Source of the DNA: a virus
Strand: one strand, 5' to 3'
Length of the DNA: 39,411 nt
IMG/VR virus record: IMGVR_UViG_3300022198_005508
Coordinates: 1 to 39,411 of that record
A program made the position numbers and the translations under genes. This document shows, one piece after another, positions 476 to 13,355 of the stretch. A model generated the notes under the pieces. The model ran no database searches. It saw only the letters and a list, made by a program, of their open reading frames with translations, and was not told the origin of the DNA. Position 1 is the stretch's first letter. Every line of letters starts with the position of its first letter.

Positions 476-1717
476 ATGAAGCTCCGTCCTCACCAAGCCC
501 GAAGCCTCACCAAGATGGAGCTGGTTAAGCTTGGCCAGATCTATGTCCCCACTGGTGGTGGCAAGACTCTGATTATGATTCGTGATCTCATGCGTAGATT
601 ATCAGAATCAGACAAACCATTCACTGCACTGATTGTTGCTCCTCGCATCCTGCTTGCGAATCAGTTATGTGCAGAGTTCACACAAGATATTAAAAATGCT
701 GTAGTTGCTCACATTCACTCAGGTGAGACCAAGCATTTCTCTACAACTAATCCTGATCATCTTACCATGTTTCACAACATGGTTAAATCTACCAATGAAC
801 ACCAACTACTTTTTACTACTTATCATTCTCTTCATCGTGTTGTTGACAGTGGAATACACATTGATACAGTCTACTTTGATGAGGCTCACAATGCCTGTAA
901 GCGAGACTTCTTTGTTTCTACTGCAATGATGTCTCAACATGCAGAGTCTGCATACTATTTCACTGCCACACCTAAACTGTCACAGAATCCAAAAGGTCGT
1001 GGCATGAATAACTCTATTGTGTTTGGACAGGTGATTGAGAATGTACCTGCACCCGAACTGATTGAGAATGGTAGCATCATTCCTCCAATGGTTCAAATTC
1101 ATGAAGTAGATGGTGAGCGTGAGAAAGAAAATGCAGCAAAACATGATGCTAAAACTCTGTTATCTATTCTTGATGGCCTAGATGATACTAAAGCTCAAAA
1201 AGTGCTAGTTGCTGCACCTAGTACCAAAGTGTTGTGTCAAATGCTATTTCGTACTGATGTGATGCATCAGTTCAAACAACGTGGCTATGATATTCTGCAC
1301 ATTACATCAAAGGAAGGTGCATATGTCAATGACAAGAAAGTGAATCGTGAAGTATTCTTTGACACCATGACTCAGTGGGGTCAGGATAGGACAAAGAAGT
1401 TTGTGTTATTTCATTATTCTATTCTGAGTGAAGGTATCAACTGCCCAGGGCTCACCCACTCTGTGCTCCTGCGAAATCTCAACGTGATTGAAATGTGTCA
1501 AACTATTGGCCGAGTTATTCGTGTTGATAGAGAAGATGCTGCAGATATGGCCAATGGTGTTCTCACTCCTGGTGATTATCTGTCCTATCGGAAATCATAT
1601 GGGTTCGTGACTGTACCAGTCCACAAGAACTATGGCAAGAACACCCAGCAGCGGCTGCAGAGCGTGGTAGACTTTGTGTTCAGGCAGGGCATCCCTCCTG
1701 AGTACTATGTTGACTGA
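476..1717 (+). CDS. Superfamily 2 DEAD/DEAH-box helicase (UvsW/ResIII-like)
   Basis: ATP-dependent nucleic-acid helicase or translocase of 413 residues. Motifs seen in order: Walker A PTGGGKT (residues 25-31), DEAH (135-138), TAT motif III (163-165), a motif V region around SILSEGINCPGLTH, and motif VI QTIGRVIR (342-349). This is the two-RecA-domain layout of SF2 enzymes such as T4 UvsW, which remodels branched DNA during recombination and replication, and of restriction-type ResIII helicases. It is shorter than T4 UvsW (about 500 residues) and begins almost directly with the Q-motif/Walker A region, so the extra N-terminal domain of UvsW seems absent. It is a single-gene unit with its own sigma70-like promoter at 426-454 and is followed by a hairpin and the next promoter. 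The helicase call is firm; equivalence to UvsW is inference. Confidence 0.9.
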   Translation: MKLRPHQARSLTKMELVKLGQIYVPTGGGKTLIMIRDLMRRLSESDKPFTALIVAPRILLANQLCAEFTQDIKNAVVAHIHSGETKHFSTTNPDHLTMFHNMVKSTNEHQLLFTTYHSLHRVVDSGIHIDTVYFDEAHNACKRDFFVSTAMMSQHAESAYYFTATPKLSQNPKGRGMNNSIVFGQVIENVPAPELIENGSIIPPMVQIHEVDGEREKENAAKHDAKTLLSILDGLDDTKAQKVLVAAPSTKVLCQMLFRTDVMHQFKQRGYDILHITSKEGAYVNDKKVNREVFFDTMTQWGQDRTKKFVLFHYSILSEGINCPGLTHSVLLRNLNVIEMCQTIGRVIRVDREDAADMANGVLTPGDYLSYRKSYGFVTVPVHKNYGKNTQQRLQSVVDFVFRQGIPPEYYVD

Positions 1718-3786: not shown

Positions 3787-3964
3787 AACCACTACATTCC
3801 CAGTTGAAGTTAATGCTATTGCAGCTGTTGCTGGACTAGCTGGAGCACTTGTTGTGATTCTTTACGCATTCACACGGAACCATCAGTATGAAATGCGGAA
3901 ACGTATGCGGAGCATCAGGAAGGCTAATGAGTCAGAGGTTGACATGCCCCCGCAAATCGGTTAA
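3779..3964 (+). CDS. Small single-pass membrane protein
   Basis: 61 residues: a short N-terminus, one transmembrane segment (about 9-32, Ala/Val/Leu-rich), then a basic cytoplasmic tail with several Arg and Lys (RKRMRSIRKANESEVD). By the positive-inside rule the C-terminus should face the cytoplasm. The start at 3779 overlaps the previous stop by 8 nt. Its last codons contain the -35 box and spacer of the next promoter, and its TAA overlaps the -10. It closes the operon that began at 1824. Family not recognised. Confidence 0.65.
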   Translation: MIETTTFPVEVNAIAAVAGLAGALVVILYAFTRNHQYEMRKRMRSIRKANESEVDMPPQIG

Positions 3965-6174: not shown

Positions 6175-6244
6175 GATTAAAAATATGTTAAAAAATATGT
6201 ATGAGAGAGATAGAATTATTAAGTATATGTGATAGAAAGAAAGG

Positions 6245-6389
6245 ATTATTAACCTTATACTGTATGCCTCCGAGAATTATTAACTGTATACTGTATGCCT
6301 CCGAGTGTGTCAAGTAAATTATTAACCTTATACTGTATGCCTCCGAGTGTGTCAAGTAAATTATTAACCTTATACTGTATGCCTCCGAG
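6245..6389 (+). repeat. Four 30-bp iteron-like direct repeats
   Basis: Core units at 6245-6274, 6276-6305, 6318-6347 and 6360-6389, each ending CTGTATGCCTCCGAG. The last three are spaced by exactly 42 bp with an identical 12-bp linker (TGTGTCAAGTAA), so the spacers are not variable. A related half-site TTCGGAGG occurs at about 6415-6422 and CCTCCGAG again near 6554. No believable gene lies here. Confidence 0.8.
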
Positions 6390-6521
6390 TGTGTCAGAGA
6401 AAGTATCTGAAATGTTCGGAGGTGTAGCAGTCTTGGCCCGCAGTATATCACATCACGCCGAATTTGTCAAGCCCCCCAGCCCAAAAAACCCATAAGGACT
6501 CCAAATCATTCCGAGGCCACC

Positions 6522-6584
6522 AATAAGTATTACTAATATAAGCATTCCAAATCCCTCCGAGTCCATTCATTAGCATTACTAATC
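6522..6584. repeat. Two degenerate copies of the 17-bp palindrome
   Basis: AATAAGTATTACTAATA (6522-6538) and CATTAGCATTACTAATC (6568-6584) match the palindrome GATTAGTATTACTAATC found at gene ends further right. The second lies 9 bp before the -35 of the next promoter. Confidence 0.55.
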
Positions 6585-6649: not shown

Positions 6650-6844
6650 ATGAACTACCCAGACGTGGTACAATTCTTCAGCCCATCCATGAAACAAGAT
6701 GAGATGATTGAAGTATTAACAGAAGAACTTTATAGTAATAACTACAAACTAATGGAAATGATTATTGAGGAATATGTAACCTCTATGGATAGTGAACAGT
6801 TGACTCATTTAGAATGTTTTATCAATAACAACCTGACTGATTAG
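6650..6844 (+). CDS. Small acidic hypothetical protein
   Basis: 64 residues, MNYPDVVQFFSPSMKQDEMI..., strongly acidic, predicted all-helical (IEVLTEELYSNNYKLMEMII). It has its own promoter and a leader ending ACCCCAACCC, like other first genes. It resembles in size and charge the acidic genes that follow, especially that at 7818, but I would not call them homologous by eye. Function unknown; tiny acidic early proteins can be inhibitors or DNA mimics. Confidence 0.65.
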   Translation: MNYPDVVQFFSPSMKQDEMIEVLTEELYSNNYKLMEMIIEEYVTSMDSEQLTHLECFINNNLTD

Positions 6845-6861
6845 TAACACTTATGGCTCAG

Positions 6862-6894
6862 GGGGTTGACTCCAGCCCCAATTCAGGCCATACT
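6862..6894 (+). promoter_or_regulatory. Stem-loop with embedded early promoter
   Basis: GGGGTTG (6862-6868) pairs with CAGCCCC (6873-6879), one U-G wobble, loop ACTC. The -35 TTGACT (6866-6871) lies in the left arm and loop; 17 bp later is CATACT (6889-6894). The leader hairpin GTTCA/TGAAC (6901-6915) begins at the predicted start of transcription. Confidence 0.65.
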
Positions 6895-6917
6895 TGAATC
6901 GTTCACCACCTGAACCC

Positions 6918-7193
6918 ATGAAACTCACCACCGAGCAAACTCAAGACCTGCTGACTGCACATTGCTATCGAGTTATTGATAACATGGATGCAGATGATTT
7001 GTTTAGCTATGCTATGCAACTCATGATGCAATCTTTTGACAAGAATCCTGGCCAAGGTGATACAGATGTTGAAGGATTGATTTCTGACATCTGGATTGCA
7101 GAAGATGAGGATGATGATAGTGCTCAAGAGTTTATTGCTGGTGTTCTAGGTAATGAACTCGCAGAGGAGATTGTAAAGACTACTCAATTCTAA
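6918..7193 (+). CDS. Acidic helical protein, copy 1 of a duplicated gene
   Basis: 91 residues, MKLTTEQTQDLLTAHCYRVI..., with a very acidic stretch AEDEDDDS (about 66-73). It is about 60% identical by hand count to the product of 8081-8353. The conserved parts are AHCYRVI, KNPG, the acidic run and the C-terminal helix. It heads a three-gene cassette (6918, 7203, 7337) that is repeated at 8081-8625. The start at 6918 is chosen over an in-frame TTG at 6894 because the latter overlaps the -10 box. No family known to me; its charge pattern would fit a DNA mimic or a binder of basic proteins, which is inference. Confidence 0.7.
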   Translation: MKLTTEQTQDLLTAHCYRVIDNMDADDLFSYAMQLMMQSFDKNPGQGDTDVEGLISDIWIAEDEDDDSAQEFIAGVLGNELAEEIVKTTQF

Positions 7194-7202
7194 TTATTAA
7201 CA

Positions 7203-7331
7203 ATGGAAACTAGCTTCGATTTCCCTGAACTAGAGACTGAATGGCAGGATGACATGTTAATTCCTGCAGATGATGACTATGAAAGTGAACAACACTTTCA
7301 GCAGTTTATTAACTCCAACACTGATTATTGA
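7203..7331 (+). CDS. Tiny acidic protein, copy 1
   Basis: 42 residues, METSFDFPELETEWQDDMLI..., net strongly negative, ending INSNTDY. The homologue at 8357-8491 shares WQDDMLIPADDD and the entire C-terminal FINSNTDY. The DNA of the two copies is identical for 42 nt across the gene end (7302-7343 and 8462-8503). Second gene of the duplicated cassette; starts 9 nt after the first. Function unknown. Confidence 0.65.
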   Translation: METSFDFPELETEWQDDMLIPADDDYESEQHFQQFINSNTDY

Positions 7332-7336
7332 TTATT

Positions 7337-7477
7337 ATGTCTAAAGCACTTCTGGTTTCAATGCTTCGCAAAGGTCAAACTGGCAATGAGATTCTCACGA
7401 TTCTTAACATGCTCGCCAGTGAAGATGAAGACATTAGTAATACTAATGAACCAACTCTAGATGAGATTGAGTTCTGA
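7337..7477 (+). CDS. Small protein, copy 1
   Basis: 46 residues, MSKALLVSMLRKGQTGNEIL..., with a short helical motif (SMLRKGxxGxxILTIL) and an acidic tail ending DEIEF. The copy at 8497-8625 keeps the helical motif and the EIEF end. The motif resembles small cyanophage and cyanobacterial proteins with 'LL..GxnGxqILxILD' that I recall only generally. The stop codon is the first three bases of a 19-bp palindrome. Third gene of the duplicated cassette. Confidence 0.65.
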   Translation: MSKALLVSMLRKGQTGNEILTILNMLASEDEDISNTNEPTLDEIEF

Positions 7478-7493
7478 TTAGTATTACTAATCA
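7475..7493. repeat. 19-bp perfect palindrome over a stop codon
   Basis: TGATTAGTATTACTAATCA: two 9-bp arms around a central T. It begins with the TGA of the gene at 7337. Identical copies at 7739-7757 and 8623-8641. Confidence 0.85.
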
Positions 7494-7495
7494 TT

Positions 7496-7531
7496 CAGGG
7501 GGTTGACAAGACCCTGAAAATCGGTTAAGTT
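7496..7531 (+). promoter_or_regulatory. Stem-loop with embedded early promoter
   Basis: CAGGG (7496-7500) pairs with CCCTG (7512-7516), with TTGACA (7503-7508) in the loop; 17 bp later TAAGTT (7526-7531). The leader hairpin GTTCA/TGAAC (7538-7551) starts 7 nt after the -10. Confidence 0.65.
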
Positions 7532-7558
7532 ACCTTTGTTCACTTCTGAACCACTCCA

Positions 7559-7741
7559 ATGGCTCTGATTCTCGACACCAGCAATCAGTACAACTCTGTT
7601 GCAAACCATGACTACAAAATGACATGGTGTGCATCTTGGGTTGACCATTATAATTTCCTTGCAGGTATTAGCTTTAATACTGAAGCTGAAACTGCAATGT
7701 ATAAAGAAGAGATGATGGAATATCTCTGCTATGATGTCTGA
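7559..7741 (+). CDS. Small hypothetical protein
   Basis: 60 residues, MALILDTSNQYNSVANHDYK..., aromatic-rich (MTWCASWVDHYNFLAG), with a short acidic C-terminus (EEMMEYLCYDV). It stands alone between two promoter cassettes, inserted between the two copies of the duplicated three-gene set. Its TGA opens another 19-bp palindrome. No family recognised. Confidence 0.65.
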   Translation: MALILDTSNQYNSVANHDYKMTWCASWVDHYNFLAGISFNTEAETAMYKEEMMEYLCYDV

Positions 7742-7757
7742 TTAGTATTACTAATCA
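7739..7757. repeat. 19-bp perfect palindrome over a stop codon
   Basis: Second identical copy of TGATTAGTATTACTAATCA, starting at the TGA of the gene at 7559. Confidence 0.85.
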
Positions 7758-7761
7758 ATCG

Positions 7762-7795
7762 GGGGGTTGACACCTCAACCCCCACCTGCTACATT
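7762..7795 (+). promoter_or_regulatory. Stem-loop with embedded early promoter
   Basis: 9-bp stem GGGGGTTGA (7762-7770) / TCAACCCCC (7775-7783), loop CACC. The -35 TTGACA (7767-7772) overlaps the left arm and loop; TACATT (7790-7795) follows after 17 bp. The leader hairpin GTTCA/TGAAC is at 7802-7815. Confidence 0.7.
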
Positions 7796-7817
7796 ATCAA
7801 TGTTCACTACTGAACCC

Positions 7818-8003
7818 ATGACCAACACTTTTGACCGTGATTCGCTGATTGAAACCTATGTTCAGCAGCTTATTGATGGTATGGACATGAAGACTATGGA
7901 GCGTATGGTTTATGATACCTTGATTGACAATCTTTCTTCCTATTCTGATGAAGAACTGATTACAGAGGTTGAAGAATACAATCCCGAACTGTTGGAGGAT
8001 TGA
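7818..8003 (+). CDS. Small acidic helical protein
   Basis: 61 residues, MTNTFDRDSLIETYVQQLID..., all-helical and acidic, ending EEYNPELLED. The ATG at 7818 is chosen because the upstream in-frame TTG at 7767 is the -35 box itself. It has its own promoter cassette. Its TGA opens a variant of the palindrome (8001-8019). Function unknown. Confidence 0.65.
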   Translation: MTNTFDRDSLIETYVQQLIDGMDMKTMERMVYDTLIDNLSSYSDEELITEVEEYNPELLED

Positions 8004-8019
8004 TCAGCATTACTAATCA
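8001..8019. repeat. Variant palindrome over a stop codon
   Basis: TGATCAGCATTACTAATCA, 7 of 9 arm positions paired. It starts at the TGA of the gene at 7818. Confidence 0.7.
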
Positions 8020-8022
8020 ATC

Positions 8023-8057
8023 GGGGGGTTGACAGGGATCAATCCCCATGCCATACT
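8023..8057 (+). promoter_or_regulatory. G/C stem with embedded early promoter
   Basis: The G-run at 8023-8028 and TTGA can pair with TCAATCCCC (one bulge). TTGACA (8029-8034), 17-bp spacer, CATACT (8052-8057). GTTCA (8064-8068) follows at the predicted transcript start, but the TGAAC partner is lost. Confidence 0.6.
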
Positions 8058-8080
8058 TACATCGTTCACCACACAAGGCC

Positions 8081-8353
8081 ATGAACCTCACTTCTGAACA
8101 GGTCAAAGATCTCTGTCAGGCACATTGTTATCGTGTCATTGAACAAATGAACCACGATGATTTAATTAGCTATGCTGTACAGATGATGTACATGTCATTT
8201 GAAAAGAATCCTGGTGATGGTGACATTGATGTTGAAATGTTGGTTTCTGACATCTATGTTGCTGAAGATGAAGATGATGATTCTGTGTATGAATTTGTTT
8301 CTGGCACAGTAGGTGAAGAGATTGCTGAACAAGTTATTAACTATCAATTCTGA
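8081..8353 (+). CDS. Acidic helical protein, copy 2 of a duplicated gene
   Basis: 90 residues, MNLTSEQVKDLCQAHCYRVI..., paralogue of 6918-7193 (about 60% identity by hand count, with AEDEDDDS kept). The ATG at 8081 is preferred to an upstream in-frame ATG at 8048, which lies before the -10 box. It heads the second copy of the three-gene cassette. Retention of the same three genes in the same order suggests that they act together or were copied as a block. Unknown function. Confidence 0.7.
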   Translation: MNLTSEQVKDLCQAHCYRVIEQMNHDDLISYAVQMMYMSFEKNPGDGDIDVEMLVSDIYVAEDEDDDSVYEFVSGTVGEEIAEQVINYQF

Positions 8354-8356
8354 ATC

Positions 8357-8491
8357 ATGGACACTTATGATTTCGCTGAACTTGAGGCTGAAGTATTTGA
8401 CTGGCAGGATGATATGTTGATTCCTGCCGATGATGATGCTGAAGCTGACAAACATTTCAGCCAGTTTATTAACTCCAACACTGATTATTGA
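8357..8491 (+). CDS. Tiny acidic protein, copy 2
   Basis: 44 residues, MDTYDFAELEAEVFDWQDDM..., paralogue of 7203-7331 with three extra residues before WQDDMLIPADDD. It has the same FINSNTDY end and an identical 42-nt DNA stretch across the junction to the next gene. It starts 3 nt after the previous stop. Confidence 0.65.
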   Translation: MDTYDFAELEAEVFDWQDDMLIPADDDAEADKHFSQFINSNTDY

Positions 8492-8496
8492 TTATT

Positions 8497-8625
8497 ATGT
8501 CTACAGAAGTTCTGATTTCGATGCTTCGCAAGGGAAAGAATGGTGAGCAAATTCTCACTATTCTCGACATGATTACTGGTGAGGATGATACTGCAGAGCC
8601 CACATCTGAAGAGATTGAGTTCTGA
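8497..8625 (+). CDS. Small protein, copy 2
   Basis: 42 residues, MSTEVLISMLRKGKNGEQIL..., paralogue of 7337-7477, shortened in the acidic tail but ending in the same EIEF. Its TGA opens the third perfect copy of the 19-bp palindrome. Last gene of the second cassette. Confidence 0.65.
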   Translation: MSTEVLISMLRKGKNGEQILTILDMITGEDDTAEPTSEEIEF

Positions 8626-8641
8626 TTAGTATTACTAATCA
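8623..8641. repeat. 19-bp perfect palindrome over a stop codon
   Basis: Third identical copy of TGATTAGTATTACTAATCA, starting at the TGA of the gene at 8497. Confidence 0.85.
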
Positions 8642-9364: not shown

Positions 9365-9529
9365 GTGACCAGCCAAAACCCCTACGTTCAGCAGCTGCAA
9401 GCCCAGGGCAAGGAGCCCAGCAAGGCTGCTGCCCCTAAGCGGACCTTCCCTTGCACCATCGGTGCTCGGACCTTCCACACCGAGGAGCAGTATCAGGAAG
9501 CCCTGCACGAGTTTCTGAACGGGTACTGA
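9365..9529 (+). CDS. Small GC-rich-gene protein (GTG start)
   Basis: 54 residues from a GTG at 9365: MTSQNPYVQQLQAQGKEPSK..., with an Ala/Lys/Pro linker and a C-terminal part FPCTIGARTFHTEEQYQEAL. No in-frame ATG exists. Codon choice (CTG, GCC, AAC, CAG) switches sharply here to a GC-rich style unlike the genes to the left. Its TGA opens another palindrome variant (9527-9545). Family not named, but the compact strand/helix end looks like a conserved phage mini-domain. Confidence 0.6.
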   Translation: MTSQNPYVQQLQAQGKEPSKAAAPKRTFPCTIGARTFHTEEQYQEALHEFLNGY

Positions 9530-9567
9530 TAAGCAACGCTAATCAGTCGGGGGCTCCACGAGCCCCC
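9527..9567 (+). promoter_or_regulatory. Palindrome variant plus strong stem-loop
   Basis: TGATAAGCAACGCTAATCA (9527-9545) starts at the stop codon, as in the AT-richer cassettes. It is followed by an 8-bp stem GGGGGCTC (9549-9556) / GAGCCCCC (9560-9567). TAGACT (9577-9582) is the likely -10 for the next gene; GTTCA follows at 9590. Confidence 0.55.
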
Positions 9568-9604
9568 ACCAGCTGCTAGACTTTTCTCAGTTCACACCCA
9601 AGCC

Positions 9605-10387: not shown

Positions 10388-10702
10388 ATGACCAGCTCTG
10401 ACCGTCTGACCCGTACCAGCATCCCCACCGTGGTGGCTGTTGCCATTGCCAAGGTCACTCTGCTGAAACCCCACGTTATCGGCAGGCACCGTGCACAGTG
10501 GCTGTTCGATCTGGCCACCAGTGAGACTGCTCTCAAGGAGGAGCGCAAGCTGGGCCGTAAGGCACTGCAGATCGCTGCCGATGCTGCTGGCCGCAGCGTG
10601 ATCACCCTGGCTGATGGTCGCACCATCGGCAACCGAGTCTACAGCAAGGCCAGCAACCGCAGGCTAGTTCGCTGGAGCCAGGATCGCCCTAGCGCAGTCT
10701 GA
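10388..10702 (+). CDS. Basic GC-rich-gene hypothetical protein
   Basis: 104 residues, MTSSDRLTRTSIPTVVAVAI..., Ala/Arg-rich, with a helical middle (AQWLFDLATSETALKEERKL) and a C-terminal basic stretch (KASNRRLVRWSQDRPSAV). Net positive. No family recognised; the charge and helix content would fit a nucleic-acid binder. Single-gene cassette, followed at once by a strong intrinsic terminator. GC-rich codons throughout. Confidence 0.6.
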   Translation: MTSSDRLTRTSIPTVVAVAIAKVTLLKPHVIGRHRAQWLFDLATSETALKEERKLGRKALQIAADAAGRSVITLADGRTIGNRVYSKASNRRLVRWSQDRPSAV

Positions 10703-10716
10703 CAAGTGGCACAAGG

Positions 10717-10741
10717 GGGCTTGACAGCAAGCCCTTTTTTT
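10717..10741 (+). terminator. Intrinsic terminator
   Basis: GGGCTTG (10717-10723) / CAAGCCC (10728-10734), loop ACAG, followed by seven T. TTGACA (10721-10726) lies in the loop as in the promoter cassettes, but no -10 follows at 16-18 bp, so this copy seems to act as a terminator only. Confidence 0.8.
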
Positions 10742-11531: not shown

Positions 11532-11580
11532 CTCCAAACCCGTCACAGTGTGACAATCCAAAAAGCTGCACAAGCCCCTG

Positions 11581-11610
11581 TTGCCAGCTGCCGCTTGGGC
11601 CTGCTAGTGT
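11581..11610 (+). promoter_or_regulatory. sigma70-like promoter
   Basis: TTGCCA (11581-11586), 18-bp spacer, TAGTGT (11605-11610), 25 bp before the ATG at 11636. Confidence 0.45.
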
Positions 11611-12756: not shown

Positions 12757-12811
12757 GATCAGCGATACTGATCGATCAGCAGTGCTGATCAGTGGGCAGA
12801 GGCAGTATAAA
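12757..12811 (+). promoter_or_regulatory. Tandem GC variants of the palindrome next to a -10 box
   Basis: GATCAGCGATACTGATC (12757-12773) directly abuts GATCAGCAGTGCTGATC (12774-12790), the latter a perfect 17-bp palindrome with central G. Fifteen bp later is TATAAA (12806-12811). The layout is what an operator pair overlapping a promoter would look like. Confidence 0.55.
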
Positions 12812-12899
12812 CGGCCCTTATGGGTCGCCGCCCCCCGTACCCGTGGAAAATTCTAAATACTCAAGCTATAAACCTTTACCAGCGACTTCGATATATTCA

Positions 12900-13355
12900 A
12901 TGATTAAAAATAAAAAAATTTTGCCCACAAAATTTGACGGCTACTATGTTTCTGAAGACGGAAAAATTTTTACTGAGTGGCATTTAGTAAATAATAATGG
13001 AAGATTTGGTTCAATCAGAGGAGAGCTGCGAGAAGTAAAATCTCATCCAAGAGGAGGATGTAATCCAAATGACAGATATTTAGCTGTAAATATTTCATTA
13101 AAAAATGACCAAGGAAAAACTATTAAGCAAATCAAATATTACTCACATAGACTCATAGCAGAGACTTTTATAGAAAACCCACAAAATTTGAAAGAAGTAG
13201 ACCATATTGATGGAAACAAACAAAATAACTCAACAACAAATCTGAGGTGGGTAGATAGAAAAGAAAACCTAAAATGGATGATAGGAAATACTTTTGGAAA
13301 AAATTTTCGACAAAAAAAATCCGAGAACCTTGTAGATTCTCGGAGAAAAAAATAA
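12900..13355 (+). CDS. HNH homing endonuclease (NUMOD4-like + HNH)
   Basis: 151 residues from the ATG at 12900; an in-frame GTG at 12843 is possible. The N-terminal PTKFDGYYVSEDGKIF (about 9-25) matches the NUMOD4 pattern of phage homing endonucleases. The HNH core follows: HRLIAETFIENP (from about residue 83), then VDHIDGNKQNN...NLRWV, with the DH and N residues of the metal site. It nicks or cuts DNA and spreads by repair; here it appears free-standing. It is AT-rich and begins just after the GC-rich block, a sign of insertion. Its 3' end contains the terminator of the opposing gene. Confidence 0.85.
   Translation: MIKNKKILPTKFDGYYVSEDGKIFTEWHLVNNNGRFGSIRGELREVKSHPRGGCNPNDRYLAVNISLKNDQGKTIKQIKYYSHRLIAETFIENPQNLKEVDHIDGNKQNNSTTNLRWVDRKENLKWMIGNTFGKNFRQKKSENLVDSRRKK
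13312..13343 (-). terminator. Minus-strand intrinsic terminator inside the HNH gene
   Basis: Read on the minus strand: CCGAGAA (13343-13337) / TTCTCGG (13327-13321), then ATTTTTTTTG (13320 downward). It lies 24 bp beyond the end of the minus-strand kinase gene and within the last codons of the HNH gene. Confidence 0.75.

Follow-up and report, generated by a model that had tools for sequence, protein, structure and literature searches.

According to a 2026 review (PMC13249358, citing Bolay 2022), RbcR is a CbbR-type activator of RuBisCO genes from the LysR family, with the consensus ATTA(G/A)-N5-(C/T)TAAT; the review places its activating site some 90 nt ahead of the transcription start and has it able to repress from other positions. 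Cyanophages are known to borrow host nutrient regulators: control of cyanophage genes by host PhoB was shown by gel shifts (PMC10976474), and NtcA promoters have been predicted in cyanophages (PMC3037559). T4-like phages also have PeSL promoter/stem-loop cassettes (Arbiol 2010; Comeau 2014; both as cited in PMC4503421). The palindrome described here resembles the RbcR sites of cyanobacterial RuBisCO and CCM promoters in its ATTA(G/A)-N5-(C/T)TAAT core and its LysR-like T-N11-A spacing, and differs from them in standing in viral early promoters at about –54 and not about –90, in many copies per genome, with tandem 22-bp and shared divergent arrangements. It shares with the PhoB and NtcA promoters the apparent borrowing of a host nutrient regulator, whereas the regulator would here be one of carbon fixation and the box stands ahead of many small early-region genes and of the UvsW helicase; the PhoB case has gel shifts, while the phage RbcR-type boxes are known here from sequence. 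We consider it likely that the palindrome is the site of a LysR-type regulator, most likely the host RbcR, built into the early promoters of T4-like viruses of picocyanobacteria. The word early, for the boxed promoters and genes, is suggested by promoter type and gene neighbourhood.

The window, by which we mean the whole stretch analysed (39,411 nt), corresponds to one entire entry (39.4 kb) in a virus collection, and by its predicted genes it is a fragment of a T4-like cyanomyovirus (Table 1). Its closest annotated relatives at the DNA level are the Synechococcus phages DSL-LC03 and S-RIM8. A cassette-like region of small ORFs occupies about 3.9–12.7 kb. Within it, G+C content rises to about 0.55 between 9300 and 12700 (0.36 in the whole record) in a series of single-gene units, which may be of host or other-phage origin. 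The ORF groups at 6894–7477 and 8048–8625 look like tandem duplicates of each other, with similar acidic proteins in the same order, and direct repeats of ATTATTAACCTTATACTGTATGCCTCCGAG are found at 6243–6400, upstream of the box at 6568.

The 19-bp palindrome TGATTAGTATTACTAATCA is present exactly at 7475, 7739 and 8623, and with up to three mismatches it has 11 strand matches in the window against 0.04 expected from shuffles, so the three exact copies and the variants reported in the preliminary description are found far above shuffled expectation. A degenerate palindrome also gives 11 matches (0.41 expected), the signature AT.AG.{5}CT.AT gives 13 (1.4 expected under a Markov-1 null), and the same signature with TTGAC at a gap of 9 or 10 gives 7, where 0.005 would be expected. 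In most boxes of the window these 9 or 10 nt lead to TTGAC and then, over a 17-nt spacer, to a –10 element. The more distant versions given earlier at 6522, 6568, 12757 and 12774 are all present, and to them we add copies at 6839, 7432 and 3913, the last of which came to light only once other loci had yielded the general signature; it too has TTGACA 9 nt on. The GC-rich copies had been said to keep the two-fold symmetry; that at 12774 is indeed a perfect palindrome, but its neighbour at 12757 contains two non-Watson-Crick pairs. Abutting-box clusters lacking a –35, like that at 12757–12830 of the window, are also seen in the contigs L014 (near 1740) and L011 (near 580), and GCAGTATAARCGGCCCTTATGGGTCGCCGCCCCCCGTACCCG follows the clusters of the window and of L014.

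Table 1. Boxes and landmark genes of the window (positions in nt; gap, distance from the 17-bp box to the –35 hexamer)
Feature	Position	Strand	–35 and gap	–10	Remarks
UvsW-type helicase	476–1717				
Box CATCAGGAAGGCTAATG, RbcR-type	3913–3929	+	TTGACA 3939, gap 9		ORF start 3994
Box AATAAGTATTACTAATA	6522–6538	.			Without own promoter; next box 46 bp downstream
Box CATTAGCATTACTAATC	6568–6584	+	TTGACA 6594, gap 9	TATATT, ends 6622	
Box GATTAGTAACACTTATG	6839–6855	+	TTGACT 6866, gap 10	CATACT, ends 6894	
Box CATTAGTAATACTAATG	7432–7448	.			Within ORF 7328–7477; next box 44 bp downstream (two 22-bp periods)
19-bp palindrome	7475–7493 (17-bp box 7476–7492)	+	TTGACA 7503, gap 10		Includes ATTAG-TATTA-CTAAT
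19-bp palindrome	7739–7757 (box 7740–7756)	+	TTGACA 7767, gap 10	TACATT, ends 7795	
Variant TGATCAGCATTACTAATCA	8001–8019 (box 8002–8018)	+	TTGACA 8029, gap 10	CATACT, ends 8057	
19-bp palindrome	8623–8641 (box 8624–8640)	+	TTGACA 8651, gap 10	TAAATT, ends 8679	
Variant TGATAAGCAACGCTAATCA	9527–9545 (box 9528–9544)	+	TCCACG 9555 (non-consensus), gap 10	TAGACT 9577–9582	Ahead of DUF7227 gene (9605)
Abutting boxes GATCAGCGATACTGATC and GATCAGCAGTGCTGATC	12757–12790	.	None at usual gap		
HNH endonuclease	near 12900				
Baseplate gp6 homologue	18681				
Baseplate gp8 homologue	28354				

The arrangement is not peculiar to the window. Scans of the viral collection returned many contigs with the composite of box and promoter, from which 139 sites with a gap of 9 or 10 were read together with two at other gaps. 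Cyanomyovirus (Kyanoviridae-type) DNA has the 17-bp element 9 or 10 nt upstream of TTGAC at some 140 sites. The 104 non-redundant copies follow the pattern [GC]AT-N-AG-N5-CT-N-AT[GC], with the consensus [GC]AT(A/T)AGCAAYRCT(A/G)AT[CG]. Positions 2, 3, 5, 13, 15 and 16 are invariant among them and positions 6 and 12 are conserved in 98–99%, all of which are upper estimates, since the search pattern favours the fixed bases and allows one departure only. As a guard against circularity, the 71 sites that do not fit the original scan pattern were tallied separately: 42 have a gap of 9, 29 a gap of 10, and none any other. When a looser signature was run over whole records with gaps of 4–14 nt allowed, 89 of the 93 distinct GTCAA-linked matches again had a gap of 9 (48) or 10 (41). 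Promoter prediction makes the downstream promoter a sigma70-type one, with the box centred at about –54, and where a gene could be assigned its start codon is mostly 50–58 nt past TTGAC (phage gene starts, like the host –35 and –10 positions, are predictions).

Several sites are more elaborate. A second full box lies 22–23 bp upstream in 10 of 95 non-redundant sites, and a half-site ends 5 nt before the box in 18 of 95. At five loci (L084, L096, L099, L059 and L025) one box is common to divergent promoters, with TTGAC 9 or 10 nt off each end. The box is also retained beside non-consensus –35 hexamers, TTCACA in L012, L064 and L106 and TCCACG at the 9527 copy of the window. Outside the small-gene cluster, a box with TTGAC at gap 10 precedes a peptidase-like gene (MSDIKQ.KSILAKLLATENL) in L222, L223 and L224. 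Another conserved upstream element, approximately GANAAG(T/C)GGCACA or GATAAGCTGCACA, is located about 20 nt before the –35 at 10700–10740 and 11555–11600 of the window and in L135, L141 and L144; cyanophages from both marine and fresh waters have it ahead of the T4-GC 637 gene, and it is possibly the site of another regulator.

The feature that had first drawn attention to the palindrome was its coincidence with stop codons, and at 7475, 7739, 8001, 8623 and 9527 the first three bases of the copy are indeed the TGA of the upstream gene (ORF ends 7477, 7741, 8003, 8625 and 9529). This link is real in the window but is not a general rule. Of roughly 95 copies with an assignable upstream ORF, 28 have its stop, a TGA, at –1; otherwise a TAA or TAG falls within the box, as at 6839–6855, whose internal TAG (6842–6844) terminates ORF 6650–6844, or the stop is farther upstream, mostly by 4–20 nt. 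No upstream gene terminates at the box 6568–6584, which precedes ORF 6650. Since the stop offset varies widely and the promoter gap does not, we rejected the idea that the arrangement is organised around the stop codon: it is the promoter that sets where the box lies, and the overlap is a consequence of tight gene packing up to the box, which supplies TGA, TAA or TAG.

The palindrome had been attributed to selection either for protein-binding DNA or for an RNA stem. As an RNA element at gene ends, it would be a terminator or a 3'-end stabilising hairpin in the manner of the T4-like PeSL cassettes, a reading encouraged by the five window copies on stop codons, by the folding of the exact palindrome (–5.7 kcal/mol, z –5.9) and by the separate G/C-rich stem around many –35 boxes. 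However, only the perfect palindrome folds well; the common forms reach 0 to –1.9 kcal/mol, and the variant at 8001–8019 has two C-A mismatches as RNA. Pair 4-14, which the search pattern leaves free, can form in only 15 of 104 copies against a mean of 31.6 with shuffled arms, as the prevailing form has GATAAG in one arm and CTRATC in the other, in either orientation; pair 8-10 can form in 42 of 104, also below shuffled arms. A terminator scan found none at the boxes, no U run follows them, no gene ends at the copies between divergent promoters, and the same pattern recurs upstream of host csoS1. A role as RNA is therefore highly improbable: arms that often cannot pair as RNA, and single copies serving two divergent promoters, argue for a DNA-binding site and not for an RNA stem or terminator.

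Protein-binding DNA, the other half of the earlier proposal, is supported by the eight fixed bases, the fixed promoter spacing and the recurrence in many distinct phages. Loss of symmetry in copies elsewhere, which was to count against it, does occur at four of the eight pairs (1-17, 4-14, 7-11 and 8-10) and does not touch the eight fixed positions, as expected for a pseudo-symmetric operator. Judged from the arm statistics, the divergent sharing and the tandem and half-sites, the box is the predicted site of a dimeric DNA-binding protein. A plain UP element was judged unlikely, as UP elements would have neither eight fixed G/C-containing positions nor two-fold symmetry.

The likeness to PeSL cassettes lies in compact early-promoter units between small variable-region genes with a G/C stem near the promoter; the boxes do have a promoter beside them, and some of the –35s lie within a G/C stem. 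The difference is that the palindrome is an upstream DNA site and not the defining stem-loop, and that the U run of a terminator is absent. The G/C-rich stem itself (GGGGGGTTGACA-cct-CAACCCCC) surrounds the –35 hexamer of several units (7761–7783 of the window and equivalents), and a similar –35 stem is kept in other phages with different –35 letters.

As for the protein, a blind scan of 390 cyanobacterial genomes with the phage pattern gave few matches, five of which lie in small (picocyanobacterial) genomes upstream of csoS1-rbcL, the operon for carboxysome and RuBisCO. Of 58 such upstream regions collected from Cyanobiaceae, 56 contain the exact signature AT.AG.{5}CT.AT, where shuffles would give 0.36; in 55 of the 58 it stands 41–43 nt ahead of a conserved TTGAC, and host site and phage box have the same eight fixed positions. 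Some 25 bp downstream of this host box, the Cyanobiaceae regions (L145–L211) show another conserved block, A..GTGAT, which is probably the activation half of the LysR site.

The RbcR core itself is matched exactly in the three perfect copies, where GATTAGTATTACTAATC holds ATTAG-TATTA-CTAAT. Other copies fit the looser AT-N-AG-N5-CT-N-AT and not the strict core; the alpha-cyanobacterial AT-N-AG..CT-N-AT is looser at position 4 than the Synechocystis consensus. The box has T-N11-A in a short inverted repeat (aTtagtattactAat), as LysR sites do, and these often comprise more than one dimer site, with which the tandem boxes and half-sites agree. Exactly one LysR HTH scored above the cut-off in each of eight Cyanobiaceae genomes, and the best PDB match of the host protein is 5y2v, "Rubisco operon transcriptional regulator". 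In Prochlorococcus MED4, RbcR is the one named LysR-type regulator (PMC6778093). The assignment of the single host LysR gene as the RbcR orthologue rests on this literature and on the PDB match. The stretch ahead of rbcR showed no box in these hosts, although in Synechocystis RbcR controls its own gene. The activating position of about –90 is not that of the phage boxes, which by promoter prediction are centred at about –54, with the host csoS1 box at about –86. Since the phage position is unlike –90, our claim is limited to an RbcR-type box and does not extend to a proven RbcR-activated promoter. By inspection, the box is not an NtcA site (it holds GTA-N1-TAC and not GTA-N8-TAC; consensus from PMC3037559) and contains neither form of the Pho box (PyTTAAPyPy(T/A) or CTTA-N7-CTTA; PMC10976474, PMC3037559). 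An Rfam search gave zero matches. The exact motif was not found in papers, and a literature search found none linking RbcR (or CbbR) to cyanophages.

The position at –54 deserves separate comment. Across 201 Cyanobiaceae genomes the phage-like architecture has two matches only, both within porin-like genes of one genome, and 11 scattered matches occur in the genome collection; host promoters sharing it were not found. On these counts the arrangement is a viral one, virtually absent from the 201 genomes. It is reminiscent of the sites of P2 Ogr and P4 delta, zinc-finger phage activators of late promoters, which are centred near –55 and are likewise two-fold symmetric activator sites just upstream of the –35 in phage promoters; we know of no sequence relation between them and the phage box. 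In the same manner, the early promoters might be controlled by a regulator that the phage itself encodes, with the box as its operator and the rbc likeness due to convergence or to host descent of the phage protein. The phage specificity of the architecture would agree with this, as would the presence of the box in only some phage lineages. S-H38 has six boxes, S-CREM1 four, and B23 and DSL-LC03 at least one each, with one box directly ahead of the helicase gene in both S-CREM1 and S-H38; by signature none was found in Syn9, P-SSM2, P-SSM4, S-CRM01, S-SZBM1 and several others, so that the box is not a general need. Yet a search covering the LysR fold found no HTH above cut-off in 18 phage records, which are mostly fragments, a result that carries more weight for S-CREM1, B23 and DSL-LC03, which are complete isolates, and the identity of the eight fixed positions with those of the host rbc site speaks against a phage protein. 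We regard a phage-encoded regulator as unlikely and the host RbcR as the better candidate.

We propose that phage early promoters have captured host RbcR-type boxes, and that the host RbcR would bind the phage copies. In each unit the box is followed 9 or 10 nt later by TTGAC, then, over some 17 nt, by a –10 element, and by the start codon at the distance given above. Compared with the host site, the phage box is 32–33 bp nearer TTGAC, that is about three helical turns, so that a dimer bound there would sit on much the same side of the helix and now adjoin RNA polymerase, which RbcR could activate by contact from this nearer site. The three-turn shift and the boxes kept by non-consensus –35s (TTCACA, TCCACG) favour activation as the probable direction of control, and the latter, with the tandem 22-bp boxes, fit a LysR-type activator. 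It should be noted, however, that many phage –35s match the consensus as they stand and may have no need of activation. The boxes could instead be RbcR sites serving mainly for repression or titration, many copies sequestering RbcR and lowering the host RuBisCO/carboxysome operon. Up to nine boxes per record, the promoterless boxes at 12757–12790 and the similar clusters in L014 and L011 would suit such a sponge, but it would have no need of the one exact promoter distance at which most boxes stand, nor of boxes common to divergent promoters, and we give it rather less credence than even a phage-encoded regulator.

With activation by RbcR, phage early expression would track the light and carbon status of its host. 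The analysis also documents, for almost every picocyanobacterium sampled, a regulator site at a constant place by the RuBisCO operon, and the RbcR-type box probably adds to the PhoB and NtcA precedents a further host regulator, that of carbon fixation, with many sites in early-type regions. Cyanophage genomes include genes for redirecting the Calvin cycle, and an RbcR box in early promoters would, if true, be a direct regulatory link to host carbon fixation; it bears on the light dependence of cyanophage infection and on the means by which phages perceive host carbon status. The box is also a sequence handle by which early genes could be predicted in cyanophages of fresh water and estuaries that have not been cultured. 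Tentatively, it is possible that one cyanomyovirus lineage has brought its early programme under the control of RbcR, gated by Calvin-cycle metabolites, and that the same boxes draw RbcR off the host RuBisCO/carboxysome operon, which would couple take-over of the cell to the shutdown of carbon fixation.
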